From a virus, in the IMG/VR virus record IMGVR_UViG_3300042691_048607, positions 1 through 39,746 of that record: a stretch of DNA of 39,746 nucleotides; one strand, given 5' to 3'. The notes under the pieces are model-generated. The model did not search any database and was not told where the DNA came from. It worked only from the letters and a program-made list of their open reading frames with translations. Each line of letters starts with the position of its first letter. Position 1 is the stretch's first letter. Shown here in pieces: positions 11,446 through 34,494 of this stretch. The position numbers and the translations under genes were made by a program.

Positions 11446-11476
11446 GAGATATTTATTTTTGAATAAGAATTTAGAA

Positions 11477-17047: not shown

Positions 17048-18369
17048 TGCCGATACCATCATCAGGAGCGATTAAAATGTCTGAAATACGAGATGCGTTG
17101 GGTTTAACTCCAGCATCTCCATCTGGTACGTCATTAAGAGAATATAATAGATTAGCAAAAATAGCAACTGGGTTAGCAAAATTTGATACTCCTGATGTAA
17201 TGTCGGATTTTTATAATTATTCAGGAGCACCAAGTCCTACTCCGAGTCCGACTCCTGCGCCAACTCCTACTCCGAGTCCGACTCCAAGCCCAACGCCATC
17301 ACCCACACCTGCGCCAACTCCAACTCCGAGTCCAACTCCGAGTCCAACTCCGAGTCCAACACCATCACCTACACCTGCACCAACTTATGCAGCGATAACT
17401 GTGACAAATGGAACGGTGACTTGTCTTGGTGGAAAGAGTTATTGGACAACTACTTGGAGTGGAGGTACTGGAAATATGAGTTGGATAGCAATAGGAACTT
17501 CTGAATCAAACGCAATTAGTGCAGTGAATGGTATAACTGGAACTAGAGTTAATATAGGTGGAGAACCAAATTATGCTTGGGGGCCAGTTGATAATGGTGA
17601 TTGGTGGGTAGCTGTTAAAGATAGTGCTGGAAATATCGGTATTAGTACAAAATTAACTCTCGCTTGTGTAGCTCCAACACCTGCACCGACACCTTCGCCT
17701 ACTCCATCACCGACACCATCTCCTACACCGGCTCCAACACCATCTCCTACGCCGGCTCCAACATACGCTGCAATTTCAGTTATTAATGGGGAACCTGATT
17801 GTATTGGTGGTTCAAACTATTGGACAACTACTTGGAGTGGAGGTACGGGAAATATGTCATTTATTGCTTTAGGTACATCTGAATCAAACGCTATTCAGAT
17901 AGTAAATGGATCTTTACCTGGAAGAATTAGTATAGGCGGTGAGCCAAATTATTCGTGGGGCCCTGTTGCAAACGGAGATTATTGGGTGGCAGTTAGAGAT
18001 AGCGCGGGTAATGTTGGATTGAGTTCTAAACTAACATTAAGTTGTGTGGCTCCAACTCCATCGCCGACACCATCACCGACACCATCACCTACGCCGGCTC
18101 CTTCTACAAATACATTCTTAGTGGCCATTTCAAATGACCTGAATAGTATATGTAGTGTATTAACAACTAGAAGTGTAAGAGCTGAAAACAATGCGGATAA
18201 TTTAGTAGATGCTGATGGATATGTGTTATATAGAATGCCTCAAAACATTGCATTGACGGGGTATAATTATGTAATGCAAATTGATAGTGGTCAAAGTCCA
18301 ATAACTAGTATATATAATTTAAATAGTGGAACTGGTGCTGTAAATGGTACTACTGGACAATTCTGTTAA
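17047..18369 (+). CDS. Pro-Thr-Pro-Ser-rich tail adhesin
   Basis: A 440-aa protein starting in a TAATG junction with the fibre gene. Residues 1-~60 ([35 protein letters not shown]) match the N-terminal module often seen on phage tail-fibre/adhesin proteins. Then come a 52-codon [10 protein letters not shown]-type linker, a 96-aa domain, a 30-codon linker, a second 96-aa copy of the domain (both with [27 protein letters not shown] and two flanking Cys), a short third linker and a distinct ~90-aa C-terminal domain. The linkers are extended, Pro/Thr/Ser-only rods like plant extensins or bacterial PT boxes. The gene directly after it encodes a prolyl-hydroxylase-like enzyme, which suggests the linkers are modified. 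Virion location is inferred from the N-terminal module and its neighbour. Confidence 0.78.
17230..18102 (+). repeat. Three Pro-Thr/Ser tracts alternating with a duplicated 288-bp domain
   Basis: Proline-rich tracts lie at 17230-17385, 17674-17763 and 18052-18102, built of CCN-ACN-CCN-(AGT/TCN) codons. Between them are two domain copies of exactly 288 bp each, 17386-17673 and 17764-18051, whose products are closely similar. The wobble bases vary within the tracts, so the coding repeat is conserved better than the DNA repeat. This fits protein-level selection for the rod plus occasional unequal exchange. Confidence 0.88.
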
Positions 18370-18382
18370 AAAACAAAGATTT

Positions 18383-19561
18383 ATGTTAATAAGAACAATT
18401 GATAATTTTTTGAGTGAAGAAGAGTGTTATCATATAATATCACTGATTGATAAAGAGAACCAAAAAAGTACGGTCGTTGGTTATGGTGATACCCCTAGTA
18501 TAGTAAGTGATTCTAGAACAAGTAGTACATCTAATCTATGTAATTGTGATAAATTAGTTTCTTCAATTAGAGATAGAATCGCGGCTGAACTGAAAATTGA
18601 TACAATGAATATGGAGCCATTGCAGGGGCAGATGTATAACGTCGGTCAGTATTTTAGAAAACACTATGATTACTTTAATGATAGTGATAGCAATCATATA
18701 GGAATAGCTGGAAATAGAGCTTGGACATTTATGATTTATTTAAATGATAATTTTAAAGGGGGTACTACTAATTTTCCAAATTTAGATTTAGAATTCACAC
18801 CAAAAAGAGGTATGGCAGTGATTTGGCAAAATATGGATAAAAAGGGTAAGTTATATGAAGATTCATTGCACGAAGGAACTGATGTCATTGAAGGTACAAA
18901 ATATATTATAACTGCTTGGATAAGAGAAAAAAGTATAATACCTAATGGTGAAATTAAAAAAAGCCAGTACGTTTTTAAAAATTTTAAAGATTTACATACT
19001 TTTACATCTAATGGATTTTCAAAAATTAAAATTCCACAAAAAAGTTGGGAAATAATACAGGAGATGTATAATAAAGTAAAGGAAAATAAAATACAAGAAA
19101 TATTTGAAGGAAAGGATAATATAATACCTTCGGATAATGAATCAAATTCATCCGATATTCTTTCAGTAGAAGCAGTTCCTGAATTAAAAAGATTATTGCA
19201 CAATGAATTATTAGATATTCATAAAGAATGGGCGGGTGCAAATATTGAACCTTCATTTATTTATGGAATAAGAAGTTATAATAAAGGAGCAAGATTATCA
19301 TTTCATAGGGATAGAATAGAGACACACCACATATCATCAATTGTGTGTGTAGATAAAGAACTGAAAGGTTCGGAAGATTGGGCACTAGATATACAAGGGC
19401 ATGATGGTGAATGGTATAAAGTTTACTTAAATCCAGGTGAAATGGTATTATATGAATCCGCAAAATGTGAGCATGGTAGGGGGGATGCATTTCAAGGAGA
19501 GTATTATAGAAATATGTTTGTACACTATAAGTTATTAGATTATGAGTTTTCAAATAGATAA
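18383..19561 (+). CDS. Tandem 2OG-Fe(II) oxygenase, prolyl 4-hydroxylase-like
   Basis: I favour ATG 18383 (392 aa, MLIRTIDNFLSEEEC...), because the family normally starts just before IDNFLS; an in-frame ATG at 18344 would overlap the adhesin gene by 26 nt. The first domain is P4Hc-like: NVGQYFRKHYDYF gives His94-x-Asp96, RAWTFMIYLND and FKGGTTNF follow, and SLHEGTD...GTKY gives distal His163 and the 2-oxoglutarate-binding Lys173. A second jelly-roll oxygenase domain fills the C-terminal part: FHRDR gives His308-x-Asp310, and CEHGRGD and YYRNM give His364 and Arg376. Both metal triads look intact. The first domain would hydroxylate peptidyl proline; the neighbouring PTPS-rich adhesin is the obvious candidate substrate. 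The second domain's substrate is unknown. Confidence 0.85.
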   Translation: MLIRTIDNFLSEEECYHIISLIDKENQKSTVVGYGDTPSIVSDSRTSSTSNLCNCDKLVSSIRDRIAAELKIDTMNMEPLQGQMYNVGQYFRKHYDYFNDSDSNHIGIAGNRAWTFMIYLNDNFKGGTTNFPNLDLEFTPKRGMAVIWQNMDKKGKLYEDSLHEGTDVIEGTKYIITAWIREKSIIPNGEIKKSQYVFKNFKDLHTFTSNGFSKIKIPQKSWEIIQEMYNKVKENKIQEIFEGKDNIIPSDNESNSSDILSVEAVPELKRLLHNELLDIHKEWAGANIEPSFIYGIRSYNKGARLSFHRDRIETHHISSIVCVDKELKGSEDWALDIQGHDGEWYKVYLNPGEMVLYESAKCEHGRGDAFQGEYYRNMFVHYKLLDYEFSNR

Positions 19562-20207
19562 TACTACTAGATTAATAGCCTTTGGTGATAGTTGGACAGC
19601 TGGACATGGAGTTGAGTTAGATATTCATTGTAAAGAAGTAATTTCTCCTAATTCATTTATAGATAATTTAAGAATTAGCAATGGTTGGCCTAAACATTTA
19701 GCAAATTTATTTAATATTCCTTTCGTAAATTTTGGTTGGTGTAATTTTTCAAATTTAGATATACTTCAAAAAATAAAAGAAAATAAAAATTATTTTGAAA
19801 AAAATGATTTAATAATTGTTATGTTAAGTTTTCCATATAGAGGAGAATCAATCCCTAAAAGAGATATTGGTGAAATTATAGGTTTATTAGAAGGATATAA
19901 TTACTTTTTAATAAATTCATTTTCTAAAAGTTTTTCAAACGAATTAGATGAGGATTTATCAGAATTAAAACTTGATAGATTTCTAGCAAAAGATTTAACA
20001 ATGAAAGATATTCTTATTGAATATGAAAAAGAATTCAATCAATCCGTATGGGAATATAATTTTAGATTTCCTTATGTGTGGCAATCTACTGATTATGGGG
20101 ATACTCATCCGAATCATAATGGATACAAAATTATAGCTAAAAAAATTTACGAACTAATATCAGAATATGATAACAATACCTGTAGCCGCACCAACAAACT
20201 TATTTAA
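19542..20207 (+). CDS. SGNH/GDSL hydrolase-like protein
   Basis: A 221-aa protein overlapping the oxygenase gene by 20 nt. LIAFGDSWTAGHG carries the block I nucleophile Ser17, and YGDTHPNHNGY near the C-terminus carries Asp187 and His189 (block V DxxHxNxxG-like). Between them, FVNFGWCNFSN is consistent with the Gly block and LIIVMLSFPYRGE with the strand leading to block III. An esterase or deacetylase acting on glycans is the usual role in such neighbourhoods. It sits between the hydroxylase and two glycosyltransferases, so it may edit the glycan they build; that is inference. Confidence 0.72.
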   Translation: MSFQIDNTTRLIAFGDSWTAGHGVELDIHCKEVISPNSFIDNLRISNGWPKHLANLFNIPFVNFGWCNFSNLDILQKIKENKNYFEKNDLIIVMLSFPYRGESIPKRDIGEIIGLLEGYNYFLINSFSKSFSNELDEDLSELKLDRFLAKDLTMKDILIEYEKEFNQSVWEYNFRFPYVWQSTDYGDTHPNHNGYKIIAKKIYELISEYDNNTCSRTNKLI

Positions 20208-21000
20208 GTGGCAAACAAGTCTTTTTCAATTTGCTCAACAATGGGTATATGGTGATGTAAAATCTTTTTATGAATCATTAATATTAATTGTTGATAGAAA
20301 TGATCATAAATTTGTAGTTAAGGAAATAGATTGGAATTTAAGAATCCCATATAAAATAGTAAGAGGAATTCATTCAATTTTAGATGAATCTGAAAACCAT
20401 CCGCATTTTGCAGCTGGTAACTTATTTTTTGCACTTAAATCGGTAATAGATAGATTTTATGATAATGAAGTAATTTGTATATTAGATGCAGATATTATTC
20501 CATTAAGAAGATATGATGGTGTATTGCCAGAAGAGAATACTGTAATAACTTGTAATTTTTATGAAGATTGGCATATAAGATGTAGTAGACCTGATAAAGA
20601 AAATTATAGAATAGTTGAACCATTTTTAAAGCATGATATTCATCAATTTATGGATGGTGGATTTGTTCCAATTTTAATAAGAGTAAAGACTTTAAAAAAG
20701 ATTTTGGATGAAGTATTGGATTTAAGTTTAGAAATAGTAAGAAAGCATTTAGGTACTCCTTTTGGATGGTGGATGCAAATGTGGGCATTTCAAATTGCGT
20801 GTCATAATAATCAAATAAAATGTTTAGGGCAAGATAATACTTATTTTCCACATCAAAACGAATTGGATTTAAGTAAACATTTTTTTGCACATTACTCATG
20901 TGATACAAAATTTAAAAAAGGAACTTTTCCTAATCATAACATAGAAGAATTTCCTGATAATGTATTTTATAACCTTTTAAGAGAATGGTATCATAGATGA
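20167..21000 (+). CDS. Glycosyltransferase, resembles HPAT/SERGT hydroxyproline-arabinosyl or Ser-galactosyl transferases
   Basis: A 277-aa protein with a GT-A-like metal motif ILDADII (Asp107-x-Asp109). From memory, the order of motifs resembles plant hydroxyproline O-arabinosyltransferases (GT95) and peptidyl-serine galactosyltransferases (GT96): an N-terminal FKWQTSLFQF, the DxD strand, a FxEPxK-like NFYEDWHI segment, then FGWWMQMWAFQIACH (from 199; plant FGWVLEMYA) and AHYSCDTKFKKG (His242; plant HYTYGCD...KG). Those enzymes modify extensin-like Hyp/Ser repeats. The gene lies two genes after a prolyl-hydroxylase-like enzyme and three after a PTPS-rich protein, which fits. The general glycosyltransferase call is good; the subfamily is a hypothesis. 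Start overlaps the SGNH gene by 41 nt. Confidence 0.6.
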   Translation: MITIPVAAPTNLFKWQTSLFQFAQQWVYGDVKSFYESLILIVDRNDHKFVVKEIDWNLRIPYKIVRGIHSILDESENHPHFAAGNLFFALKSVIDRFYDNEVICILDADIIPLRRYDGVLPEENTVITCNFYEDWHIRCSRPDKENYRIVEPFLKHDIHQFMDGGFVPILIRVKTLKKILDEVLDLSLEIVRKHLGTPFGWWMQMWAFQIACHNNQIKCLGQDNTYFPHQNELDLSKHFFAHYSCDTKFKKGTFPNHNIEEFPDNVFYNLLREWYHR

Positions 21001-21797
21001 TTTACGTTTTTATAGCTTGTAGATTAGATAAGGAAATAATTCCAACTTGTTATGATTTGATTCAAAAAGCAGAAAATCCTAACGATATTAAAATTGTTGT
21101 ATTCAATCAGGATAGACAACAAGATATGTTTTTTCAGGATTTGTTTCCACCGCAAGTTACATTAGTAAATGTAGATTATAGAAAATTTTCTAATATTTGT
21201 TGGGTTAGGTCAATGGCTTCGTATTTTATTGAGCCATCATTTAAGTATTACTTATGCATTGATTCTCACATGAGATTTGACAAAAATTGGGACACTCAAC
21301 TTATTAATACATTAAAACCAAATTCAATTCTTTCAGCATATCCACCGGAATATCAATTGTATGGTGAATTTAAAAAAAGTTATGGGCACTACACCAATAA
21401 TTTTAATAAGGAAAAATTAGGATACTTTCCATTTGTAACTGTTCATTTTGCTGAATCAGATTTAGATTATAGAAAATCAACTATTGCAGCTGGGTTTCAT
21501 TTTACAACAATTGATTGGCTCTATAAGGTGGGGTATGATAAATTATTATGCTGGGGATTTGAAGAAATAGATTTGACGTATCGAAGTATCGAAGCGGGAT
21601 ATGAAATAATTAATTACAAGCAGACACCAATTTATCACCTATACGATAAAAGAGCTAGGAAACAAGAAGACCATGCTGAAAGATTTTTAATGGATTGTAA
21701 AGAGAGAATGCGTTCTAAAATTAATGATGAAACTAATAGGAAAATAAGTAATTATTATGATATAGATTTTGATGATTTTATTAAAAGATTTATATAA
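20997..21797 (+). CDS. GlcNAc-transferase family (GT60/Skp1 Gnt1-like) glycosyltransferase
   Basis: A 266-aa protein starting in an ATGA overlap. It has the family pattern I know for Glycosyltransferase (GlcNAc), Pfam GlcNAc/GT60: IYVFIACRLDKEIIPTC, DLIQKAENP, ICWVRSMA, YYLCIDSHMRF with the Asp89-Ser-His91 metal motif, NWDTQLI, ILSAYPPEY, then GFHF and CWGFEEIDLTYRSIEAGY and HLYDKRAR. The best-studied member, Dictyostelium Gnt1, transfers GlcNAc to a hydroxyproline of Skp1. Its presence beside a prolyl-4-hydroxylase-like gene therefore suggests the same two-step chemistry. Substrate assignment is inference; family assignment is strong. Length is that of a minimal catalytic domain. Confidence 0.78.
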   Translation: MIYVFIACRLDKEIIPTCYDLIQKAENPNDIKIVVFNQDRQQDMFFQDLFPPQVTLVNVDYRKFSNICWVRSMASYFIEPSFKYYLCIDSHMRFDKNWDTQLINTLKPNSILSAYPPEYQLYGEFKKSYGHYTNNFNKEKLGYFPFVTVHFAESDLDYRKSTIAAGFHFTTIDWLYKVGYDKLLCWGFEEIDLTYRSIEAGYEIINYKQTPIYHLYDKRARKQEDHAERFLMDCKERMRSKINDETNRKISNYYDIDFDDFIKRFI

Positions 21798-21805
21798 TTA
21801 TAGGT

Positions 21806-22801
21806 ATGATAATAATGGTTACAACTTCCGCTGGAAATCAAATAATAGGGGGCGGGGATATATGGGTAAATAATTTTATTAGAGAAGTTATACCAACTTT
21901 ATCAGAAGAAGTACACCTAATAATTGATAACAAACGAAGTTCAAATCATATCGAATCTTCTATATCAATCCCTCATACATTTCGATTAGAAAATCCAAAA
22001 AAGACAGAAGAGTTATTAGATAAATGTAGTAGAATAATATTCTTACACCCACCATATTCACATAGAGAGTATCTAATGGAATATCAAGATAAATGGGATA
22101 CTATTTTTATTCAAGCATACGCAAAGGATATAACCGATTCCGGTACTGATTTTAAAATGTACCCAACCAAAATTGAATTAAGTTGGCAAAATCTTTTATT
22201 GAGAAAATGCAAAAAAAGAGTTTGGATAGGATTGAACCATTCACCTCTATTAGATGATTTTGAATGTATATCTATACCGAACTATTATACATTTACTGAA
22301 GATAGAAAATTGATAGAAGAGTGTTCTGATACAATTGGATATGCAGCCCGTTTTGAATCTCGTAAAAACCCACATTGGTTATCAAATCATTCGGCTAAAG
22401 TTCTTACTCACAAATATGATTATTACAATATATCGGAAATGTATAACTTCAAAAGATGTAAGTTCTATGAATTTGATATGAATATACATCGTAATTGGTT
22501 TGTAGATAAAAGTTGGCAAATATTTCACGGAGCATATAAAAATGAACCATTTGGGTATTCAATATTTGATGCCGTAAATTATGGTAAGTTACCTATCTTA
22601 CATAAAGATTGGGGTGTAGAATGCAACTATGAATATAGGGTTAATAATAAGGAGGATTTTGATGATTTAGTAAATGAATTAATCAATACACCTTATGATA
22701 AAAAAGTAAAAGAATGTAACAAATTAAAACAATATTTGTTACAATTTGCAGATAAAAATAAATGGGTAGAAAAAGTTGGAAATCTTATAAATAATTTGTA
22801 A
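21806..22801 (+). CDS. GT-B-fold glycosyltransferase (group 1-like)
   Basis: A 331-aa protein. The N-terminal GGGDIWVNNFI resembles the glycine-rich loop of GT-B enzymes. The C-terminal half has IGYAARFESRKNPHWL (the usual start of the nucleotide-sugar domain) and NEPFGYSIFDAVNYGKLPIL, equivalent to the EPFGxxxxEAxAxGxPVV donor-binding motif of GT4-type glycosyltransferases. Donor and acceptor cannot be read. It starts 8 nt after the preceding gene and its last codons contain a TATAAATA octamer that may start the next transcript. Likely extends or adds a glycan in the modification pathway. Confidence 0.78.
   Translation: MIIMVTTSAGNQIIGGGDIWVNNFIREVIPTLSEEVHLIIDNKRSSNHIESSISIPHTFRLENPKKTEELLDKCSRIIFLHPPYSHREYLMEYQDKWDTIFIQAYAKDITDSGTDFKMYPTKIELSWQNLLLRKCKKRVWIGLNHSPLLDDFECISIPNYYTFTEDRKLIEECSDTIGYAARFESRKNPHWLSNHSAKVLTHKYDYYNISEMYNFKRCKFYEFDMNIHRNWFVDKSWQIFHGAYKNEPFGYSIFDAVNYGKLPILHKDWGVECNYEYRVNNKEDFDDLVNELINTPYDKKVKECNKLKQYLLQFADKNKWVEKVGNLINNL
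22786..22793 (+). promoter_or_regulatory. T4-type late promoter -10 element TATAAATA
   Basis: A second exact TATAAATA lies in the last codons of the preceding glycosyltransferase gene, 47 nt before ATG 22833. The distance is almost the same as at 11431 (46 nt), and this is the only other intergenic space of note (31 nt) in the right half of the window. It probably re-initiates late transcription of the remaining modification genes. Chance occurrence in AT-rich DNA is possible. Confidence 0.5.
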
Positions 22802-22832: not shown

Positions 22833-23588
22833 ATGTTACAAGACTTAAACTACATAAAAAAATACCTCACAAACAATTTAGAGTTTGATTATAGAGGTGA
22901 AGAGGAAACAAATCCTGTACCATATCGTTGGTCTCATGGAGCTACTGATACTCATTTAGGAGATGGATTAATTATCTACTCTCTGATTCAATATATGAGA
23001 GCCAAAGTGTGTGTATGTTTAGGTAGTGGTGGTGGGTTTATTCCCCGCATAATGACACAGGCTCGATACGATTTACATAAACAAAACATCTTCGAAGGAA
23101 ATCCTGATTTTAATTATGGTGATATTGGTTCAACTTATATAGTTGATGCTATGAATGGCATCGGAGGAGTTGTAGATTGGTTTGCAGAAGAATCCTTTTT
23201 CAGAAGAACATTTCATCCTAGAATCATAAATTCAACTACCGAAGAGGCGTTTTATGATTTCTTTGTATTGCAAGATATTAAAATAGATTATCTTCACATC
23301 GATGCCGGACATTCTTATGAAAATGTAAAAGAGGATTTTGATTTATATTCTCAGATAATGAGTGAGAATGGAATTATATCAATGCATGATACCGACCCAA
23401 AATATCATGATAAGTTTATTGTAACGCAAGAAGTTAAAGATAGAAATGAACATGATGATTGGAGTGGGCCTATACAATTGGCAAAAGAAATAGATTCTGA
23501 TAAATGGGAAGTGTTTAATCTTTTTAATCATGGTATTGTGAAAAATAAACCATCTTCAACTGGATTAACTTTAATAAGAAGGAAATGA
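22833..23588 (+). CDS. Class I SAM-dependent methyltransferase
   Basis: A 251-aa protein of the Methyltransf_24/cephalosporin-hydroxylase-like group. VCVCLGSGGGFIP is the glycine-rich SAM-binding motif I, YIVDAM follows motif II, and DYLHIDAGHSYENVKEDF then GIISMHDTD is the characteristic post-motif pair with metal-binding Asp/His. Such enzymes methylate sugar hydroxyls or modify polysaccharide precursors. It is the first gene after the putative late promoter at 22786 and ends in an ATGA junction with an epimerase gene, consistent with sugar modification. Exact acceptor unknown. Confidence 0.8.
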   Translation: MLQDLNYIKKYLTNNLEFDYRGEEETNPVPYRWSHGATDTHLGDGLIIYSLIQYMRAKVCVCLGSGGGFIPRIMTQARYDLHKQNIFEGNPDFNYGDIGSTYIVDAMNGIGGVVDWFAEESFFRRTFHPRIINSTTEEAFYDFFVLQDIKIDYLHIDAGHSYENVKEDFDLYSQIMSENGIISMHDTDPKYHDKFIVTQEVKDRNEHDDWSGPIQLAKEIDSDKWEVFNLFNHGIVKNKPSSTGLTLIRRK

Positions 23589-24427
23589 AAATATTAGTTA
23601 CAGGTGGGTGTGGATTTATAGGGCATGCATTATGTAAGAGATTATTAGAGGAAGGGCATGAGGTTCATATAGTAGATAATCACTATATCGGAAGAGAAGC
23701 AAAAATAGCAGAAGGTGCTAAATTTGTTGGAGGTGATGTGAGAGCAATGGAAAATATAAGTGATAAACCTTATGATTGGATTTATCATTTAGCATCATTT
23801 AGTAGAGTTTGGCTATCATACGAGAATCAAAACTATACATTTTCAACTAATGTAGATGGTACAAAAAGTGTTTTAGAATATGCTAAAAGAAATGGGTGTA
23901 AAGTAATATTCGCAAGTTCATCATCTATTCACCATTCTATTTCACCATATTCAACATCAAAAAGAATGGGTGAAGAGTTATGCCGTTTTTATAGAGATGG
24001 ATTAGGAGTTGATATAACAATAGTAAGATTATATAATGTATATGGGCCAGGTGAATTAGTTGAATCACACATGGCAGCATTATTAGGAAGATGGAGAAAT
24101 CAAATAAATAATAATTTACCTATAACTTATCATAACTTAGGAACACATTTGAAACCATTTACACATATCGATGATACGATTATTGGTTTAATTAAACTTA
24201 TTAAAACAAAAGAGATAAATCGTAATGGGTGGGAATTGGGCAATGATATTTCTTATAGTGTGCATCAGGTCTATAAAATGTTTGAAGAAAGATTCCCAAA
24301 TATAAAAGTTGAAAAGATAGTAGATGTTTCGGGAGGATACTCGATTGTCAGAAGAAAAGATGATGAAGTTAGGAGATTAGGTTGGTTTCCGAAAGATAGA
24401 TTAAAGGAATATATAGATAGTTTATGA
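23585..24427 (+). CDS. NAD-dependent sugar-nucleotide epimerase/dehydratase (extended SDR)
   Basis: A 280-aa extended short-chain dehydrogenase. The Rossmann motif is GGCGFIG (residues 7-13), VDNHYIGRE fits nucleotide recognition, HLASFSRV replaces the usual HLAA, FASSSSI is the catalytic-Ser strand, and Tyr122-x3-Lys126 (YSTSK) is the catalytic pair. VRLYNVYGPGE and a C-terminal GYSIVRRKD follow the UDP-glucose 4-epimerase-like pattern. It would supply an unusual sugar nucleotide for the adjacent transferases. Coupled on both sides by ATGA overlaps. The sugar produced cannot be told from sequence. Confidence 0.85.
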   Translation: MKILVTGGCGFIGHALCKRLLEEGHEVHIVDNHYIGREAKIAEGAKFVGGDVRAMENISDKPYDWIYHLASFSRVWLSYENQNYTFSTNVDGTKSVLEYAKRNGCKVIFASSSSIHHSISPYSTSKRMGEELCRFYRDGLGVDITIVRLYNVYGPGELVESHMAALLGRWRNQINNNLPITYHNLGTHLKPFTHIDDTIIGLIKLIKTKEINRNGWELGNDISYSVHQVYKMFEERFPNIKVEKIVDVSGGYSIVRRKDDEVRRLGWFPKDRLKEYIDSL

Positions 24428-25275
24428 AACCTAAATTAGTTACAGTCACAGGGTATAGAACAAATACTTTGAGACAAATGTTATCACATTACAAAAAAGA
24501 TGTGAGTGAAATACATTTGGTTAATTACTATTCCACAAATGCGGATAATAAAAAATCATTTGAAGAGGCAAGAGAAATTGCAGAGGAATTTGGTTGTGTT
24601 TATCATGAAAGAAAAGAAAAAGTATTTAACTGGGAAGCGGTAACTGATTTCTATAATGAAATTAAATCCATTTATCCAAATGATTGGTGGATAGTATCAG
24701 ATGATGATGAATTGCAATTATATTGGGATGATATTGGTTCTATTATAGAAGAGTGTGAAGAAAATGGTTGGGAATTTGTAACTGGTGGATTTATAGATAA
24801 AATTGGTGAAGGGGGTGAATTTCCAATAGTAAATGGTGATACTGATTTATGGAAATCATTTCCTATTAGTTCATTTTTTAGATATCCTTTAAGTGGAGCG
24901 TGTCCAAATAAAGTTACTCTAATGAAAGGTAGAATTCATTTAACTCCTGGACAACATTATGCTTTGATTGAAGGGCAAACGACTTGGAAATGGCAAGGTT
25001 GGAATCACCCTTTAAGATATCCGGTAGAAAGGGGATTTACGCAGGTACATCACTTTAAATGGGATAGCACTTGTGCAGATAGAATAAGAGCAGTTGCAAA
25101 TGTAGGAGAACACTATTCGTTTTCAGATGAATATCGAAAGATGTATAAAGAAATCGCTAAAAATAGGTTTAAAATAAATTTAGAAGATTTTTCCGAATGG
25201 ACTTGGAAATCTGAAAAATCCTTTGTATCTTTCGGTAATTGGAATAAACTAACCAAACAAATAGTTTTAATATAA
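24424..25275 (+). CDS. Glycosyltransferase-like protein (GT2-type, DDD motif)
   Basis: A 283-aa protein. KLVTVTGYRTNTLRQMLSHY and IHLVNYYSTNADN resemble the first strands of GT-A family 2 transferases, and WWIVSDDDELQ supplies the acidic metal-binding triplet. PGQHYALIEG and VHHFKWD are like the conserved His motifs seen after the acceptor domain in related phage and bacterial transferases. It is shorter than processive GT2 enzymes and has no membrane segments, so a soluble single-sugar transferase acting in the cytoplasm is likely. It couples by TAATG to the first GT7-type gene. Confidence 0.68.
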   Translation: MKPKLVTVTGYRTNTLRQMLSHYKKDVSEIHLVNYYSTNADNKKSFEEAREIAEEFGCVYHERKEKVFNWEAVTDFYNEIKSIYPNDWWIVSDDDELQLYWDDIGSIIEECEENGWEFVTGGFIDKIGEGGEFPIVNGDTDLWKSFPISSFFRYPLSGACPNKVTLMKGRIHLTPGQHYALIEGQTTWKWQGWNHPLRYPVERGFTQVHHFKWDSTCADRIRAVANVGEHYSFSDEYRKMYKEIAKNRFKINLEDFSEWTWKSEKSFVSFGNWNKLTKQIVLI

Positions 25276-26765
25276 TGACAGGTGCTAAAATAGCAATAAT
25301 AGTTCCGTATAGAGATAGAAGGGAGCAGTTGGATACCTTCGTTCCACACATGACAGAATTCTTTAAGAATAAAGATGTGGATTACAAAATTTTTATAGTT
25401 GAACAGGCTGATGATAAACCATTTAATTATGGTAAGTTATGTAATATTGGATTCTCTTTATTCAAAGAAGGATTCGATTATTTCTGCTTTCATGATATTG
25501 ATATGTTGCCGGTAAGTGATGATTGTGATTACAATTATATTCACATTGGAGGTTATCCTGTACACATGGCTACTAAGGTATCTGCGCACACATTTAAACT
25601 CCCATATTTGGAATATTTTGGTGGAGTAGTAATGTTCTCTAAAGAAGATTTTGAAGCCGTTAATGGGTATTCTAATGAGTATTATGGATGGGGTTTTGCT
25701 GATTTAGATTTACTTCATAGATGTAGAATTAATGATATAGAGTTAGATGAAGAAATTGTTTTTCCTCGCATAGACTCGTATTATGAATTTGAGAAAATAA
25801 AAATAACCGATAAAAAGTATTCGGAAAGAGTAAAATACATAGATTTCAAAGATAATGATTTATACTTAAAAATATTTCCGAATAATCAGATAAAGGATTT
25901 AACAAAAGATAGTTTTAGTGTATCTCTTTGGTTTAGTAAAGATGAGATTGCTAAAGAAGAAGAATACTTAGTTAGTTGGCCTGGATTTAACACTGGTATA
26001 TCATTGCAAAATGATGGAACAATTAGAGTTAATGTTTATGATAATGATAGACAATACTGTTTTGCATACAAACGATATGAATTAGGAGTTTGGAATCATG
26101 TTGCAATGGTAGTTGATTACAATAAAGAGGTAGTTGAATTATATCTCAATAGTGTAAAAGTTCCATACACAGGCGACCAACAGCCATATATTGTTACACC
26201 GTTAATTGATTATAGTTATCAACCAATTTACATAGGATGTGCTAGTTTAAATTCATCTCCATATAAGGGTAAATTATCTAATCTTTTAATGTTTGATTAT
26301 GTTTTAGAACAAAGAGAAATTGATAATCTTTATTTAGAGGGCTATAATAATAAGAAACAAAATACCGATTTAGAGCCGGTTCTTAATATAAACTTCAATA
26401 AAATCTATCATGATTTTATATTAGATTCATCTTTGACAATGAATCATGTTAAGGTGCACTCTTTAGATTTTACCGAATACTCTAAATTCATAAAAGAAGC
26501 GGTTATTGAAAAAACATCAAAACTTTCAGTACCATCTAGAATTATGGGTAAATATCAATCACTTATCCACGATGATGATGATAAAATAACTGAAAAGTTT
26601 TATAGCTGGGATCCAGATATTGTTCAAAATTCTCAAATATACTTTGAAGAGGTTTTGACAGGAAAGGTGGATACTAAAAAGATAGGATTGAATTATTTAA
26701 ATTACAAAATTTTATCAGAAGACGAAATAAATGAAAATACAAAATGGATAAAGGTAGTTCTATAA
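25275..26765 (+). CDS. GT7-type galactosyltransferase with inserted LamG-like domain, copy 1
   Basis: A 496-aa protein. Residues 1-~170 follow the beta-1,4-galactosyltransferase (GT7) order: VPYRDRREQL, IFIVEQ, FNYGKLCNIGF, FHDIDMLP (metal DxD), YFGGVVMFSKEDFEAVNGYSN, WGFADLDLLHRC. A LamG-like jelly roll (~190-390; FSVSLWFS, GTIRVNVYD, WNHVAMVVDY, VELYLN, YIGCA) follows. Then the remaining GT7 segment resumes (~420-496): GKYQSLIH with His432 at the place of the metal-ligand His of animal enzymes, and GLNYLNYKIL near the end. The usual GEDDD is GFADLD here (Ala142, Leu144), so catalysis or acceptor choice may differ from the two later copies. Donor and acceptor unknown. Confidence 0.82.
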   Translation: MTGAKIAIIVPYRDRREQLDTFVPHMTEFFKNKDVDYKIFIVEQADDKPFNYGKLCNIGFSLFKEGFDYFCFHDIDMLPVSDDCDYNYIHIGGYPVHMATKVSAHTFKLPYLEYFGGVVMFSKEDFEAVNGYSNEYYGWGFADLDLLHRCRINDIELDEEIVFPRIDSYYEFEKIKITDKKYSERVKYIDFKDNDLYLKIFPNNQIKDLTKDSFSVSLWFSKDEIAKEEEYLVSWPGFNTGISLQNDGTIRVNVYDNDRQYCFAYKRYELGVWNHVAMVVDYNKEVVELYLNSVKVPYTGDQQPYIVTPLIDYSYQPIYIGCASLNSSPYKGKLSNLLMFDYVLEQREIDNLYLEGYNNKKQNTDLEPVLNINFNKIYHDFILDSSLTMNHVKVHSLDFTEYSKFIKEAVIEKTSKLSVPSRIMGKYQSLIHDDDDKITEKFYSWDPDIVQNSQIYFEEVLTGKVDTKKIGLNYLNYKILSEDEINENTKWIKVVL

Positions 26766-26989
26766 TAAAACAAATTATCAACAATGAAGAAATTGTTGAA
26801 AGGGCTGAAAAAATTGCAGACATATTAGAATCGTTTGAAGATAACAAGACGATTGATAATTTCTCATATATGATGCCTATTATATATTCTTCTTTGGAAT
26901 TAATGAGAGGATATTATGGGGGTACTCAATCACCTTTCCCAACAGGATTTTTCAAAAAAAGAACAGAAAATAAATTAAAAAACAAATAA
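26744..26989 (+). CDS. Small hypothetical protein
   Basis: An 81-aa protein whose ATG lies 22 nt inside the end of the GT7 copy 1 gene. It appears helical (IIKQIINNEEIVERAEKIADIL) with a basic C-terminus (FFKKRTENKLKNK). There is a moderately hydrophobic patch (YMMPIIYSSLELM) but not a clear membrane helix. It precedes two small paralogous genes. No family recognised. Position inside a tightly packed operon supports it as expressed. Confidence 0.55.
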   Translation: MDKGSSIIKQIINNEEIVERAEKIADILESFEDNKTIDNFSYMMPIIYSSLELMRGYYGGTQSPFPTGFFKKRTENKLKNK

Positions 26990-26990
26990 A

Positions 26991-27227
26991 ATGGCTACAT
27001 CAAAAAAACCCGAAACTTCAAATATTGATATTGAAGAAAGAGCAGTTAGAGCATTTGAAAAAATAGGTACATCGTTAGAAAACATTCAGGATTGGATGTA
27101 TGAGTTAGATACTAAAGGCTGGTCTGAAAGATTAGAATGGTATCTAAACGAATTCTATATGATTGCCAAAGCTAAAACCATTGGTAATACTGGAAGACCT
27201 GATAAATCAAATGAAAGACCTCAATAA
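26991..27227 (+). CDS. Small conserved protein, tandem paralogue A
   Basis: A 78-aa protein starting one base after its neighbour's stop (AAATAAAATG). It shares with the next protein the pattern ERAVRAFEKIGTSLENIQDW, then WxxRLEWYLNEFxxIxKAK and a C-terminal GRP...ERP tail. The helical WYLxEF core and disordered tail suggest a small adaptor or oligomeric protein. I recall similar small proteins near glycan genes in T4-like marine phages but know of no function. Probably arose by tandem duplication with 27234-27464. Confidence 0.65.
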   Translation: MATSKKPETSNIDIEERAVRAFEKIGTSLENIQDWMYELDTKGWSERLEWYLNEFYMIAKAKTIGNTGRPDKSNERPQ

Positions 27228-27233
27228 TAGATT

Positions 27234-27464
27234 ATGGCAGATCAAAAAACATTGGAAGAAAGACAAGTAAGGGCACTGGAAGATATAGCCTCTTCACTTA
27301 GAGATTTGAACGATTGGATGTTTGAAATCGATAAATCAGCTTGGGGTACAAGAGTAGAATGGTACTTACATGAATTCCACACAATTTTAAAAGCTAAAAA
27401 CTTAGGAAGTGTATCTCGACCTATGAGAGATTCTGAAAGACCTAATGATGAAAGACAACAATAA
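27234..27464 (+). CDS. Small conserved protein, tandem paralogue B
   Basis: A 76-aa protein, 6 nt after paralogue A. Shared positions include ER-VRA-E-I--SL---DWM-E-D and RVEWYLHEF--I-KAK-LG followed by RP and SERP. The end overlaps the GT7 copy 2 gene by 20 nt, so it is translated in the same operon. The pair sits exactly between GT7 copy 1 and copies 2-3, which hints that the duplication unit included these genes. Function unknown. Confidence 0.65.
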   Translation: MADQKTLEERQVRALEDIASSLRDLNDWMFEIDKSAWGTRVEWYLHEFHTILKAKNLGSVSRPMRDSERPNDERQQ

Positions 27465-28887
27465 GAAAGAACAAAAGAAATTAGCTGTTATAGTTCCTTA
27501 CAGAAATAGGGAATCACATCTTAATGTCTTTATTCCTTATTTAGAAGATTATTTAAACTCTAAGAAAATTCCATTTGAAATTTTTGTAATTGAGCAAAAA
27601 GATAACAAACCTTTTAATAGAGGTAAATTATTAAACATTGGATATAAAGAAAGTGGGAATGAGTTTGATTATTTTTGTTTTCACGATGTAGATATGTTAC
27701 CCATTAAGGTTGATTATTCATATTGTGATAGACCTACACACTTGGCCAATAAAGTTGATGGTGAAGAGAGTTTTTACAATTACTTCGGTGGTGTAACTAT
27801 TGTTAATAAATTGGATTTCAAAATAATAAATGGATACTCTAATGAATATTGGGGATGGGGATTTGAAGATGATGATTTACTTCAAAGATGTATTCAATGT
27901 AATCTAAGTTTAGATACCAGACCATTTGGGATTCAGAATGAGGAATATAATTTAAATTATTTTTATTTCAATGGTATAGATTCATTCATCAGTATTCCTT
28001 TTGAAAATTTTAAACCTATATTTGAAGATGAATTTTCTATTTCAATAAAGTTCAAACCAGATGATTTGGTGAATGATTTAAATAGAGATTATGATGAATA
28101 CACTATATTCTCTATTCCTGGTTTTAATTTCTCTTTATCATTTAATAGTTTTAATAGATTTAAATTAGATATTTGGGATAAAGATGAAAAATCTAAAAGT
28201 ATAGTTTCAGATATTAGTCCGGATATGTGGGTTCACGCAGTAATCAATCGTAACCCTCGTAATAAAATGATTGAGTTATATATCAATAACACTTACATTG
28301 GAGCCGAATATGTTGATGAACTTTATGATTACAAAGTAGAAGATTTCTATTTAGGGGTTGCAAATCCCGCTAAAAATTATGAAAACTATTATTTCAAAGG
28401 TTTTATGAATGAGTTTGCTGTATTTGATAAAACATTGGCAAAGACTGAAATAGAACAAATATATAAAGAATCTGCTAAGAAATCTTTACTTAATAATTTT
28501 GGTAAATATAAATCTTCAAAGTGGTTAAAACTTTATTATGATTTTAAACATTTTAGAAGAGATAAATTAATTGATTTAAGTGGAAATAGTTTTGATGCAG
28601 AGATTGTAAATTGTCAGAATAATACTTTGATGAATAAAAAGTTTTTAATTGAAGCGGTTGTTCCATATAAAAAAGATGGTTCTTTCAAATCATTAAAACA
28701 TAGTAGTAATAGTGTTGAAGGTAATCGTTGGGTACATGAAGAAACTAGACAAAATCAATTAAGATATAATTCATTGAAAAATGAAATGTTGTTCTATTCG
28801 ATAGAAGGATTGAACACATTGAGATATAAAAAAGTAGAAGAGAAACAATTAAGTGATAATACTAAATTCATTTCAGTAGAACTATGA
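27445..28887 (+). CDS. GT7-type galactosyltransferase with inserted LamG-like domain, copy 2
   Basis: A 480-aa paralogue of copy 1. Catalytic part one (~10-165): VPYRNRESHL, FVIEQKDNKPFNRGKLLNIGY, FHDVDMLP, HLANK, YFGGVTIVNK, YSNEYWGWGFEDDDLLQRC with a complete Glu141-Asp-Asp-Asp. The LamG-like domain spans about 170-390 (FSISIKFKPDD, FKLDIWDKDE, WVHAVINRNP, IELYINNTYIG, YLGVA, then a DLSGNSFDAEI segment). Catalytic part two (~400-480) restarts with GSFKSLKH (metal-ligand-like His419) and GLNTLRYKKVE. The active-site motifs look intact. Probable role: transfer of galactose or a related sugar from UDP-sugar to a phage or host glycan. Two consecutive ATGs (27445, 27448) are possible starts. Confidence 0.85.
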   Translation: MMKDNNKKEQKKLAVIVPYRNRESHLNVFIPYLEDYLNSKKIPFEIFVIEQKDNKPFNRGKLLNIGYKESGNEFDYFCFHDVDMLPIKVDYSYCDRPTHLANKVDGEESFYNYFGGVTIVNKLDFKIINGYSNEYWGWGFEDDDLLQRCIQCNLSLDTRPFGIQNEEYNLNYFYFNGIDSFISIPFENFKPIFEDEFSISIKFKPDDLVNDLNRDYDEYTIFSIPGFNFSLSFNSFNRFKLDIWDKDEKSKSIVSDISPDMWVHAVINRNPRNKMIELYINNTYIGAEYVDELYDYKVEDFYLGVANPAKNYENYYFKGFMNEFAVFDKTLAKTEIEQIYKESAKKSLLNNFGKYKSSKWLKLYYDFKHFRRDKLIDLSGNSFDAEIVNCQNNTLMNKKFLIEAVVPYKKDGSFKSLKHSSNSVEGNRWVHEETRQNQLRYNSLKNEMLFYSIEGLNTLRYKKVEEKQLSDNTKFISVEL

Positions 28888-30326
28888 AATTAGGAGTTTG
28901 CGTTCCATATAGAAATAGAGAAGAACATTTAGCACAATTCTCTCCGAGAGTTCATAAATTCTTAGAAGATAGAGGAATTGAGCATAAAATTTATTTTGCA
29001 CACCAATGTGATAACTTACTTTTTAATAGAGGTAAGATGAAAAACATTGCAGCGGATGTTGCATTTAAAGATGGATGTGATTATATTGTATGGCATGATA
29101 TCGATATGATACCGGAAGATGATAGTTGTGATTATAGTTATAATCCTGAATTACCACAGCATTTGGCGGTTCATATTTCACAAACTGATTATAATTTAAA
29201 GTATGAAGAATACTTTGGCGGAGCAGTTTTATTTACAAAAGAACAGGTTTATAAAACCAATGGTTACTCAAATGATTATTGGGATTGGGGTATGGAAGAT
29301 GATGACCTATTTTGGAGATGTGCTATTAATGGAATGGCAGACCAAACATATATCAGACCTAAAAATGAATTTGATATAGCAAATTTCAATGGAGAGAATT
29401 CTTTCATTGAAATCCCTCAGAGTCGTTCAATAAGATTTTTAAGTAATCGTTCACACACCTTATCACTTTTAGTAAAAGCACATCAACAAGAAGAAAAGAT
29501 ACCTATCTATCTAATTGGTGATAATGAAAGAAGATTTTGGGAATATCCCGTATTTAGAAGACCTGGATATGATTATGGTATTTCATATAATAATAGTAGA
29601 GCTTTTACTTCAATGTTATGGAACAACGAAGGTGAAATGCAATATATGTGGATGAAGAGATATGAGAATCTATGGACATGGGTTACTCTTAAAGTTGATT
29701 CGTATAATAAGCAAATTCATTTTTATTTAAATGGTAGAGAAACCGATGCAAGATTCGGAACAGGAGTTCAATCTCCTATGGAATATTCGGGTGATTTAAA
29801 AAGATATGGTAGTGAGAGTTATTATTTAGGAACATCTCCTTCAATAAACAAAACATTTCCAAATAAATTTTTTAAAGGGCAAATTGCGGAAGTGCGATTA
29901 TATGACAGATGTTTAACTGATAATGAAATAAAAAATATTCCATTTGAATGTGAACAAAGTGGATTACAACTTCATTATGATTTTAATTCTTTTAATGATG
30001 GACTATTAGAAGATTTAAGTGGTAATGAAAATAATGGTAAAATTACAAATGTTAATTTTACAAAAGAAAAAATAGAAATACCATCTACCGTAATTCCTCA
30101 TAGAAGAAATGGTAGATTTGAATGTTTACCACATCAAACCGAAGGGTTAGTTAATGGTAAATGGGCAAAGGGAGAAACTACTGCGCGAAATGAAAGAAGA
30201 TATATTTTAGAAATGCAGCAGGGTAAATATGATTGGAAAAACGATGGTATGAGTAATTTAACCTATGAATTACTTAATATAGAAGAAATAGGGAATAATT
30301 CAGTTTTAATTAATTGTAAATGTTAA
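28884..30326 (+). CDS. GT7-type galactosyltransferase with inserted LamG-like domain, copy 3
   Basis: A 480-aa third copy, ATGA-coupled to copy 2. Motifs: VPYRNREEHLAQF, FNRGKMKNIAAD, WHDIDMIP (His-Asp-Ile-Asp), HLAVH, YFGGAVLFTKEQV, NGYSNDYWDWGMEDDDLFWRC with Glu138-Asp139-Asp-Asp. The LamG-like insert runs from ~165 to ~395 (HTLSLLVKAH, WTWVTLKVDS, IHFYLNGRE, YYLGTS, AEVRLYDRCLTDNEI, EDLSGNENNG). The last ~80 residues carry GRFECLPH (His417), GKWAKGET and GMSNLTYELL, very like the C-terminus of animal beta-1,4-galactosyltransferases (GLNSLTYQVL). It has the clearest split-domain signature of the three. Confidence 0.86.
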   Translation: MKLGVCVPYRNREEHLAQFSPRVHKFLEDRGIEHKIYFAHQCDNLLFNRGKMKNIAADVAFKDGCDYIVWHDIDMIPEDDSCDYSYNPELPQHLAVHISQTDYNLKYEEYFGGAVLFTKEQVYKTNGYSNDYWDWGMEDDDLFWRCAINGMADQTYIRPKNEFDIANFNGENSFIEIPQSRSIRFLSNRSHTLSLLVKAHQQEEKIPIYLIGDNERRFWEYPVFRRPGYDYGISYNNSRAFTSMLWNNEGEMQYMWMKRYENLWTWVTLKVDSYNKQIHFYLNGRETDARFGTGVQSPMEYSGDLKRYGSESYYLGTSPSINKTFPNKFFKGQIAEVRLYDRCLTDNEIKNIPFECEQSGLQLHYDFNSFNDGLLEDLSGNENNGKITNVNFTKEKIEIPSTVIPHRRNGRFECLPHQTEGLVNGKWAKGETTARNERRYILEMQQGKYDWKNDGMSNLTYELLNIEEIGNNSVLINCKC

Positions 30327-32382: not shown

Positions 32383-33760
32383 TACAGAAAGATATGGTGA
32401 AATAAGAAGAAAACTCAATTCAGTTGGAAGAGGATTTTGTTTAGCAAAATGGAAACAAGTCACTCTTCATCTTCATATTGGGCAAAATCACAGTTGTCAC
32501 CATCCAGGTATTCACAAAATTGTTCCAGAAGAATTAGAAAACAATCCATCTGCACTTCATAATACCAAATATAAAAAGGAATTAAGGAGAGAGATGTTGC
32601 AGGGGTTAAGACCAACTGAATGTGATTATTGCTGGAAGGTAGAAGATAATTCTAATGAGTTCTCCGATAGAACATTTAAATCTGCGGAAGAATGGGCATG
32701 GCCTCATTTTGAAGAAATTAAAAATTCATCTTATATGGATGATGTGAACCCTTCTTATGTGGAGGTATCATTCAGTAATGCATGTAATTTTAAATGTTCT
32801 TACTGCTATCCTCAATTTTCCACACAATGGTGGGAAGAAATTGAGCAATTTGGAGCTTACCCAACTTCAACTCGTCATAATGGATTAGACCATATTATTA
32901 AAGAAGGCAAACAACCCTTTAAACAAACCGAACATAATCCCTATGTAGAGGCATTTTGGAAATGGTGGCCAAACCTATATAAAGACCTTCTTAACTTTAG
33001 AATTACTGGTGGAGAACCTTTACTTCATAAAGATACATTTAAGGTATTTGATTATGTAATTGATAACCCTAACCAAAAATTAAAGTTGGCTATTAATTCA
33101 AATTTGGGAGCACCTGAAAAATTATACCAACAGGCAAAAGAAAAAATTAAAAGAATAAGTAGTGATGGATTAGTGAGAGAGTTTATCATTTTCACTTCGT
33201 GTGATGGTTGGGGTGAACAAGCAAATTATATTCGTAACGGATTTGATTACAATCAATGGTATGATAGATGTGCTGAATTACTAGAGGAAATACCAAAACT
33301 AACAATCTCTATTATGGGAACATATAATGTATTAAGTATCCCATCATATAAAGGATTAATTAAAGATGTATATCAATTGAAGAAAGAATTTACTAATCCG
33401 GATAGATATTGGTTTTATCCAATCGGGTTAGATAGCTCATATCTTAGACATCCATACCATCAGGCCGCTAACATTATTACTGATGATTGGCACAAAGAAG
33501 TATTTGAGCAGGCTCAATTAATGGATTTCTATGAAAGTTTGGGCACACAAAATCCAATCGGTTATACTGATGTTGAAATTCATAAATTAAGAAGAATCTA
33601 TGACGTAGTTGTGGCTCCAAAAGAAGAACATTCATTAAAAAGAGATAGAAAAGATTTTTATAGATTTTTTAGTGAGCATGATAGAAGAAGAGGAACTGAT
33701 TTTGTAAAAACATTTCCAGAGTTGGAAGATTTTTGGAACTTATGTAAAAGTATAAGATAA
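32375..33760 (+). CDS. Radical SAM protein (twitch-type), paralogue 2
   Basis: A 461-aa close paralogue of the 30320 product along its entire length. Shared features: the N-terminal GRGFCLAKWKQVTL, NHSCHHP, ECDYCW, the cluster motif CNFKCSYC (Cys137, Cys141, Cys144), YVEAFWKWWP, FRITGGEPLL, FIIFTSCDGWGEQANYIR and a C-terminal RRGTDF. High identity indicates duplication, together with the adjoining LamG-like gene, after which copies diverged. All cluster cysteines are kept in both, so both should be active. Substrate unknown; candidates are the phage's own fibre/adhesin peptides or a sugar nucleotide. Confidence 0.88.
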   Translation: MDNTERYGEIRRKLNSVGRGFCLAKWKQVTLHLHIGQNHSCHHPGIHKIVPEELENNPSALHNTKYKKELRREMLQGLRPTECDYCWKVEDNSNEFSDRTFKSAEEWAWPHFEEIKNSSYMDDVNPSYVEVSFSNACNFKCSYCYPQFSTQWWEEIEQFGAYPTSTRHNGLDHIIKEGKQPFKQTEHNPYVEAFWKWWPNLYKDLLNFRITGGEPLLHKDTFKVFDYVIDNPNQKLKLAINSNLGAPEKLYQQAKEKIKRISSDGLVREFIIFTSCDGWGEQANYIRNGFDYNQWYDRCAELLEEIPKLTISIMGTYNVLSIPSYKGLIKDVYQLKKEFTNPDRYWFYPIGLDSSYLRHPYHQAANIITDDWHKEVFEQAQLMDFYESLGTQNPIGYTDVEIHKLRRIYDVVVAPKEEHSLKRDRKDFYRFFSEHDRRRGTDFVKTFPELEDFWNLCKSIR

Positions 33761-34494
33761 TGAGTCATTTGTATTTTAATAAAGATATTAGTTATAAAGT
33801 TTGGGATCAATCAACCTTTAATACTTCAAAAAAACCAAATTTAAAAACTTTCTTTCATAAAGATTTTACAATTTATAGCAAATTTAAAATAGAAAGAACT
33901 GAAGATAGGGGTGATGCTATATATGGTATATTTTCCAAATGTGGTTTACACTCCGGTGTATTTGTAAATAAGGAAAATGATTTCTATGTTGTGAGTGCAC
34001 AACTGTGGATGAGTAAACCATTAGATGCAGAAAACATTAATATTACTTTTATTTATGATTTTGAAAGAGAATGGCAAGAAATATTCTTTTCAGTAGATTA
34101 TACAAACAAAATACTACGAGTAACTTATAATGGTGAATCAAAGGAAGCACCTATTACTTATCCAGTTGTGAGTTATGAAAATACCCCATTGTTTATCGGA
34201 GCCGCTGCTCCAAATTATATAGAACCGCATTTGCAAGAATTTAGTTGGTGGTATAAAGGGTGGATAGATGATGTTATTATTATGGAAAAAGTTTTAAACA
34301 AAGAAGAAATTGATTTGTTTAATTCTGATATAGTAAGAAGATTTACATTAGCAAAATATAAATTTACATTAGAAAATATAAATCGATTCAAAGTTTGGGA
34401 TGGGAGTGGAAACGGAAATCACGCTCTTCTATATCAGGATTTTAATGTAAATGATATTCAAAGCAACATTATTAATAAATTAGAAGGAGAATGA
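33760..34494 (+). CDS. Stand-alone LamG-like (concanavalin-type) protein, copy B
   Basis: A 244-aa protein in a TAATG junction with radical SAM paralogue 2. Strand motifs FTIYSKFKIER, EWQEIFFSVDYTNKILRVTYNGES, PLFIGAAAP, WIDDVIIMEKVLNKEEIDLF and a C-terminal WDGSGNGNHALL follow the LamG/concanavalin order seen in the GT7 inserts. It is paralogous to 31714-32382 but more complete in the central sheet. No catalytic residues or signal peptide. Likely a carbohydrate-binding or scaffold partner of the radical SAM protein; ATGA-coupled to the epimerase gene. Confidence 0.7.
   Translation: MSHLYFNKDISYKVWDQSTFNTSKKPNLKTFFHKDFTIYSKFKIERTEDRGDAIYGIFSKCGLHSGVFVNKENDFYVVSAQLWMSKPLDAENINITFIYDFEREWQEIFFSVDYTNKILRVTYNGESKEAPITYPVVSYENTPLFIGAAAPNYIEPHLQEFSWWYKGWIDDVIIMEKVLNKEEIDLFNSDIVRRFTLAKYKFTLENINRFKVWDGSGNGNHALLYQDFNVNDIQSNIINKLEGE

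Follow-up and report, generated by a model that had tools for sequence, protein, structure and literature searches.

A viral family of GT7 glycosyltransferases with a LamG-like domain nested inside the catalytic domain

The animal beta-1,4-galactosyltransferases B4GalT1 and B4GalT7 (CAZy family GT7) are contiguous enzymes in which an N-terminal and a C-terminal part together make up a GT-A fold, with DxD and xED motifs, a C-terminal metal-ligand histidine (C-His), a lid, and the last strands. The same elements are encoded by three genes, here called p1, p2 and p3, in the IMG/VR virus record IMGVR_UViG_3300042691_048607, which comes from an uncultivated phage and is referred to below as the window (39,746 bases, analysed at full length). 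The resemblance extends to about 31% identity over 214 residues, but p1-p3 have 251-262 residues between the xED helix and the C-His strand, where the animal enzymes have no break, and most of this insert is a LamG/pentraxin-like jelly roll. Relatives that share the C-terminal part and have no LamG are found in bacteria (among loci L189-L239) and in two viral loci (L180 and L181).

In polypeptide GalNAc-transferases and GnT-IVa a lectin domain stands after a complete catalytic domain, an order not found in p1-p3, where the C-terminal GT7 part comes after the LamG domain. As a parallel, these enzymes do combine a GT-A catalytic domain with a domain that binds carbohydrate and tunes either activity or the use of acceptors (PMC4432651, PMC9296478). 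In PGAP4 (GT109) a foreign segment likewise splits the GT-A catalytic domain (PMC5785973), but there the insert consists of two transmembrane helices in a different glycosyltransferase family, whereas the insert of p1-p3 is a beta jelly roll, soluble and lectin-like. GT7 and LamG are each known and a GT-A domain split by an insert has a precedent; the nesting of the one in the other is not described in the literature searched, a search that UniProt and InterPro architectures lay outside. A first-pass annotation of the window, which knew of no enzyme with this architecture, therefore stands as far as that literature goes, with the corrections that PGAP4 is a precedent for the split and that the architecture marks a large viral family, not a curiosity of one window.

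In the open reading frame (ORF) list of the window, p1 (25275-26765, 496 aa), p2 (27445-28887, 480 aa) and p3 (28884-30326, 480 aa) are all on the plus strand, with overlaps of a few bases between p2 and p3 and between p3 and the radical SAM gene that follows. Each protein matches the Pfam families GT7N, GT7C and Laminin_G_3 in that order, all above the curated cut-offs, and all of the extra residues fall at a single point in the alignment, after the xED helix/strand ends and before the strand G-x-F/Y-x-S/C-L-x-H. The p1 gene is divided into an N-terminal GT7 part (25275-25757, residues 1-161, with the DxD at 74/76 and an A-D-L-D motif), the LamG-like domain with its linkers (25758-26543, residues 162-423; Laminin_G_3, 8.1e-17) and a C-terminal GT7 part (26544-26765) with His432, a helix at 447-460 and the last strands. 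For p2 the corresponding parts are 27445-27921 (residues 1-159), 27922-28674 (residues 160-410; 2.8e-11) and 28675-28887, which carries His419 and was delimited by sequence. Those of p3 are 28884-29354 (residues 1-157, DxD 72/74, E-D-D-D 138-141), 29355-30107 (residues 158-408; 2e-11) and 30108-30326, with His417 and a helix at 431-444. The threefold nesting read from the letters in the first pass is thus borne out; the insert it put at about 200 residues is longer, at 262, 251 and 251 residues including linkers.

The same annotation assigned the last 80 or so residues to the GT7 domain, and we found that the domain does resume, in the last 70-73 residues. A sequence search of the PDB matched the N-terminal part of p3 and p2 with B4GalT1 and B4GalT7, and a profile of 103 family members placed its positions 425-474 on B4GalT1 chain residues 221-268. 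This second stretch is collinear with the match of the N-terminal part but weak by itself (i-Evalue 6.6). Further evidence came from the LamG-free relatives, where the C-terminal part directly follows the N-terminal part: a C-terminal profile built from the nested family matched the tails of 52 out of 54 contiguous cellular GT7 proteins, versus 0 of 1080 shuffled tails (E<=0.01), and among 901 ORFs of cellular loci it had no match outside GT7 proteins. The median gap between the N- and C-terminal matches was 3 residues in contiguous proteins versus 245 in the nested family, and the viral contiguous proteins L180 and L181 align with B4GalT1 across almost their full length. The C-terminal part of p1-p3 is GT7.

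Structure prediction, proposed in the first pass as a check, was done with AlphaFold2 for p3 (from a 103-row alignment, A2; mean pLDDT 94.9, pTM 0.90) and p1 (mean pLDDT 95.4, pTM 0.91), while p2 was judged by sequence. In both models the N- and C-terminal GT7 parts pack into a single GT-A fold matching B4GalT1, complete with C-His strand, lid and last strands, and the LamG part matches separately. Neither of the two outcomes named in the first pass as refuting its reading was seen: the C-terminal part does not fold independently but joins the N-terminal part, and the latter alone, being without metal ligand and lid, is not a complete GT7 domain. VIA-align superposed p3 1-480 on 1tvy_A 180-398 (Z 27.9, rmsd 2.0, 214 residues, 31% identity) and p1 1-496 on 1tvy_A 177-398 (Z 27.8, rmsd 1.9, 214 residues); the best structural matches were mostly liganded B4GalT1 entries, among which Z differences below 1 are ties. 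The joint match of both parts came from VIA-align, as Foldseek alone aligned about 150 residues with B4GalT1. The LamG residues matched PAPP-A, pentraxins and 4dqa, by annotation a putative carbohydrate-binding protein, at Z of about 18-22.5 (PAPP-A, 4dqa and PTX3 at 19-22.5 for p1; 4dqa, PAPP-A and PTX3 at 18-22 for p3). BFVD returned LamG proteins and contiguous viral GT7 proteins and no nested match, in a search whose local aligner could miss the nested form.

The end of the insert lies 9 residues ahead of the metal-ligand histidine, in line with the earlier placing of the break just before the mobile loop. The lid of human B4GalT1 comprises residues 338-365; its closure moves Met340 and His343 to the Mn site and also forms the acceptor helix 354-361 (PMC6198961). 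Taken with the alignment point, this places the insert at the N-terminal hinge of the lid. The GT-A scheme describes the variable regions HV1, HV2 and HV3, the last being the C-terminal tail (PMC7185993), and by our reading the insert, lying after the xED helix and before C-His, coincides with the beginning of HV3 or slightly precedes it. One role, already raised in the first pass, is that of an allosteric gate, in which ligand binding to LamG would shift the lid hinge and so toggle the enzyme from open to closed or back. The gate would adjoin the equivalent of the human lid and end close to the metal-ligand histidine, but position is the one observation that points to it, and we consider it unlikely.

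Residue numbers of the bovine enzyme (Tyr289, Trp314, Glu317, Asp318, Asp319 and His347) were mapped onto the viral proteins by alignment. His432 of p1, His419 of p2 and His417 of p3 fall exactly at the metal-ligand position, as had been anticipated, and equivalents of the DxD, Asp318 and His347 are present in all three. The (E)DDD motif first reported for all three proteins is found as E-D-D-D in p2 and p3, but p1 has A-D-L-D, with Ala for Glu317 and Leu for Asp319. Across 279 family rows the DxD positions are conserved in 276 and 275, the Tyr289 equivalent in 267, the catalytic Asp in 268, C-His in 261 and the lid Asn in all 279. When these rows were assigned to the nearest window protein (p1-like 45, p2-like 118, p3-like 116), the catalytic Asp and the histidine were retained in 118/118 and 116/118 p2-like proteins and in 116/116 and 116/116 p3-like proteins, and in these two groups exceptions to the whole residue set are very few. 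The p1-like group is degenerate, with Trp at the Trp314 position in 17 of its 45 members, Glu at 317 in 18, Asp at 318 in 34 and His at 347 in 29, and at position 319 Asp is absent among the four commonest residues. We consider p2 and p3 most likely active GT7 enzymes, and p1 a less certain candidate. The equivalent of Tyr289 in human B4GalT1, Tyr285, is a donor-specificity residue (PMC6198961), and by analogy the Tyr at this position suggests UDP-Gal as donor.

Three viral scans, the first of which contributed the best 80 of 225 relatives, gave 178 loci that fall into 115 groups sharing no identical 300-mer. Profiles of the N-terminal (N), LamG (L) and C-terminal (C) parts, applied to the ORFs of 182 loci (the window itself contributing four), identified 282 N-L-C proteins, 2 N-L-L-C, 6 N-L, 2 L-C, 2 N, 2 N-C, 64 LamG-only and 1 L-L. 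The rows with a complete N part that were retained number 279, three of which are second copies of window proteins, so that the nested GT7-LamG enzyme is a conserved viral family of 276 distinct full-length sequences. Every one of the 50 contigs of at least 74 kb has two to three GT7C matches that pass the cut-off, and almost all of these matches lie in open frames of about 430-570 aa. In a phage collection of 50,697 records, p1, p2 and p3 had no matches.

A cellular scan covering one genome for each of 84,980 species yielded 58 loci, with 10 nested ORFs (nine N-L-C and one N-L-N-C) on 7 contigs and 45 contiguous N-C ORFs; the remainder were fragments, LamG-only or without a C match. Five of the 7 contigs are likely viral judging from the share of their ORFs that match viral loci (12/12, 6/6, 10/11, 5/6 and 2/2). 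The other two, L185 (1/4 ORFs) and L186 (1/15), barely match viral loci, and the idea that the nested enzyme is purely viral was rejected. The nested gene of L185 (409-1881), on a cellular-labelled contig, adjoins a weak GT2-type match. Contiguous relatives show that the GT7 fold does not need LamG, and the insert could be passive, a stabilizing element or evolutionary relic with no part in catalysis. LamG is nevertheless retained in all three paralogue groups, and among viral ORFs with both N and C parts 284 have it and 2 do not, a ratio biased toward the nested form since the loci were fetched with nested queries. We regard a passive insert as very improbable.

LamG is the fastest-changing part of the protein, with a mean pairwise identity of 0.23, compared with 0.30 for C and 0.49 for N. 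Its divergence tracks that of N (Spearman 0.56, permutation maximum 0.11), and the divergences of all three parts are inter-correlated at 0.56-0.73, which speaks against free domain swapping. The pattern is suggestive of vertical inheritance with fast change, as expected of a part that recognizes acceptors. A careful tree was built on the N+C columns of a thinned set, with 44 rows of the nested and 36 of the contiguous form and without the long rows L176_1737 and L134_4210; on it the nested label needs 2 changes (bootstrap 5-95% range 2-3; shuffled mean 27). A quick tree of N alone, with long branches, needed 5 changes (shuffled mean 46). A single change was seen in 4% of bootstrap trees, and the starred branches of the careful tree are compatible with one origin. 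Insertion events were few and one origin is possible; the viral proteins of contiguous form, L180 and L181, may be sisters or may have reverted. We consider p1, p2 and p3 to be old paralogues rather than recent duplicates, since the nearest relatives of each sit in other contigs and not among one another.

The cassette around these genes is also conserved. In the window, all of its genes being on the plus strand, it includes a methyltransferase (Methyltransf_24; 22833-23588; homologues in 101/115 groups), a 283-aa protein with a D-D-D-E motif that by eye is probably of GT-A type (GTx; 24424-25275; 105/115 groups), and two twitch-domain radical SAM proteins that cross-match (NF033640, 30320-31714, and 32375-33760; each in 104/115 groups). 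GTx has no Pfam or PDB match and is probably an undescribed glycosyltransferase family. A 331-aa neighbour (21806-22801; 68/115 groups) looks GT4-like by eye (E-P-F-G-x-S-I-F-x-A), with no Pfam family and just two insignificant matches in a PDB search, and epimerase homologues are found in 50/115 groups. The commonest order is methyltransferase, GTx, two nested GT7-LamG genes and radical SAM (43 groups), or the same with a third nested gene, and in 112/112 groups having a nested gene the cassette is on one strand. Upstream of the cassette in the window lies a tail-fibre-type protein with a C-terminal S74 chaperone (11459-17047, plus strand). The S74 domain is present in 44/50 contigs, and in 37 of the 44 it is on the same strand and at most 13 kb upstream of the first nested gene (median 6.3 kb). 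The host recognition cluster of pelagimyophages likewise combines tail fibres with glycosyltransferase and radical SAM cassettes (PMC7029224); the main text of that paper has no mention of LamG, laminin or galactosyltransferase.

Directly upstream of p2 are two tandem copies of a small protein, one of 78 aa (26991-27227) and one of 76 aa (27234-27464) that overlaps the start of p2, both on the plus strand. Among ORFs that start with ATG and are 50-130 aa long, this 60-80-aa family was counted in 102/115 groups, directly upstream of p2-type genes, and where the next gene is a nested GT7-LamG gene its start is at most 100 nt away in 153 of 154 cases. Neither Pfam nor PHROGs has a family covering it. 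Between p1 and the small proteins is also an 81-aa ORF (26744-26989) with homologues in 8/115 groups and no clear Pfam or PHROGs family.

These neighbours raise the possibility that LamG is a docking domain that assembles the cassette proteins into a glycan-building complex and makes no contact with the acceptor. Its partners might be the sister GT7-LamG enzymes, which come in tandem pairs or triplets in 50/50 contigs searched, the small protein encoded immediately ahead of p2-type genes, the radical SAM proteins, or the LamG-only proteins of the same cassette (33760-34494 in the window; 32/115 groups). The rapid divergence of LamG is unlike that of a fixed interface, and we view such a scaffold as rather unlikely. 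Very unlikely, to our minds, is a viral counterpart of lactose synthase, in which LamG would couple acceptor recognition to lid closure, the small upstream protein would act on the GT7 enzyme as a specificity subunit, comparable to alpha-lactalbumin on B4GalT1 in role and not in ancestry, and the tandem enzymes would build a programmed tail-fibre glycan.

Elsewhere in the window (17047-21797), a protein with Ser/Thr/Ala-Pro repeats resembling plant arabinogalactan glycomodules stands beside a 2OG-Fe(II) oxygenase (prolyl-hydroxylase-like) and HPAT-like (hydroxyproline arabinosyltransferase) and GT60-like genes. A Pro-repeat protein was found nearby in 4/4 viral HPAT loci (L244, which is identical to the window, L245, L246 and L241) and a 2OG oxygenase match in 3/4 of these records; none of the 2093 ORFs of loci L001-L182 has a run of at least six Ser/Thr/Ala-Pro dipeptides. 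These genes suggest phage-encoded hydroxyproline glycosylation. That the nested enzymes mainly extend hydroxyproline-linked glycans was rejected, HPAT and GT60 matches each occurring in 1/50 contigs, as a local addition outside the conserved cassette. SbcD-like and SbcC-like parts are fused in a 1064-aa protein (8034-11228) whose nearest phage match is in Microcystis phage Mel-JY01 (39%).

We lean toward p1-p3 being active inverting Gal/GalNAc-transferases in which LamG docks the acceptor at the lid hinge and which decorate tail fibres or a host surface glycan. The place of the insert, the speed at which LamG diverges and its lectin-like fold favour docking over gating or scaffolding, and the tail-fibre neighbourhood favours virion or host-surface decoration; DNA glycosylation is less favoured. 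In p2 and p3, if they work as B4GalT1 does, Mn2+ would be held by Asp72/Asp74 and His417, Tyr110 would select UDP-Gal and Asp139 would be the catalytic base (p3 numbers), for an inverting transfer of the beta-1,4 type. In GT-A enzymes, loops that reach out from the core are generally where acceptor recognition evolves (PMC7185993). LamG may bind a growing glycan or a glycosylated polypeptide and keep it beside the lid, so that sugars could be added in succession, with p1, p2 and p3 acting at successive or alternative steps and p1 perhaps with altered acceptor chemistry. The target of the cassette would most likely be the tail fibre itself or a virion protein next to it, or alternatively a host surface glycan.

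Several observations weigh against this proposal. The p1-like proteins lose Trp314, Glu317 and sometimes Asp318 or His347, and some of them may be weak or inactive. LamG and pentraxin folds also bind proteins or Ca2+, or nothing known. The nested gene L186:4941-6428 stands beside GT2, ABC transporter and HlyD-type genes, a cellular context with tail genes not in view.

A LamG domain at the lid hinge of a well-studied glycosyltransferase is a natural test of how acceptor recognition may be coupled to lid closure, and a pattern for engineering. The enzymes also mark a cassette for glycan building, widespread and so far undescribed, that lies beside phage tail fibres, has a small protein linked to it and bears on how aquatic phages may decorate themselves or their hosts.

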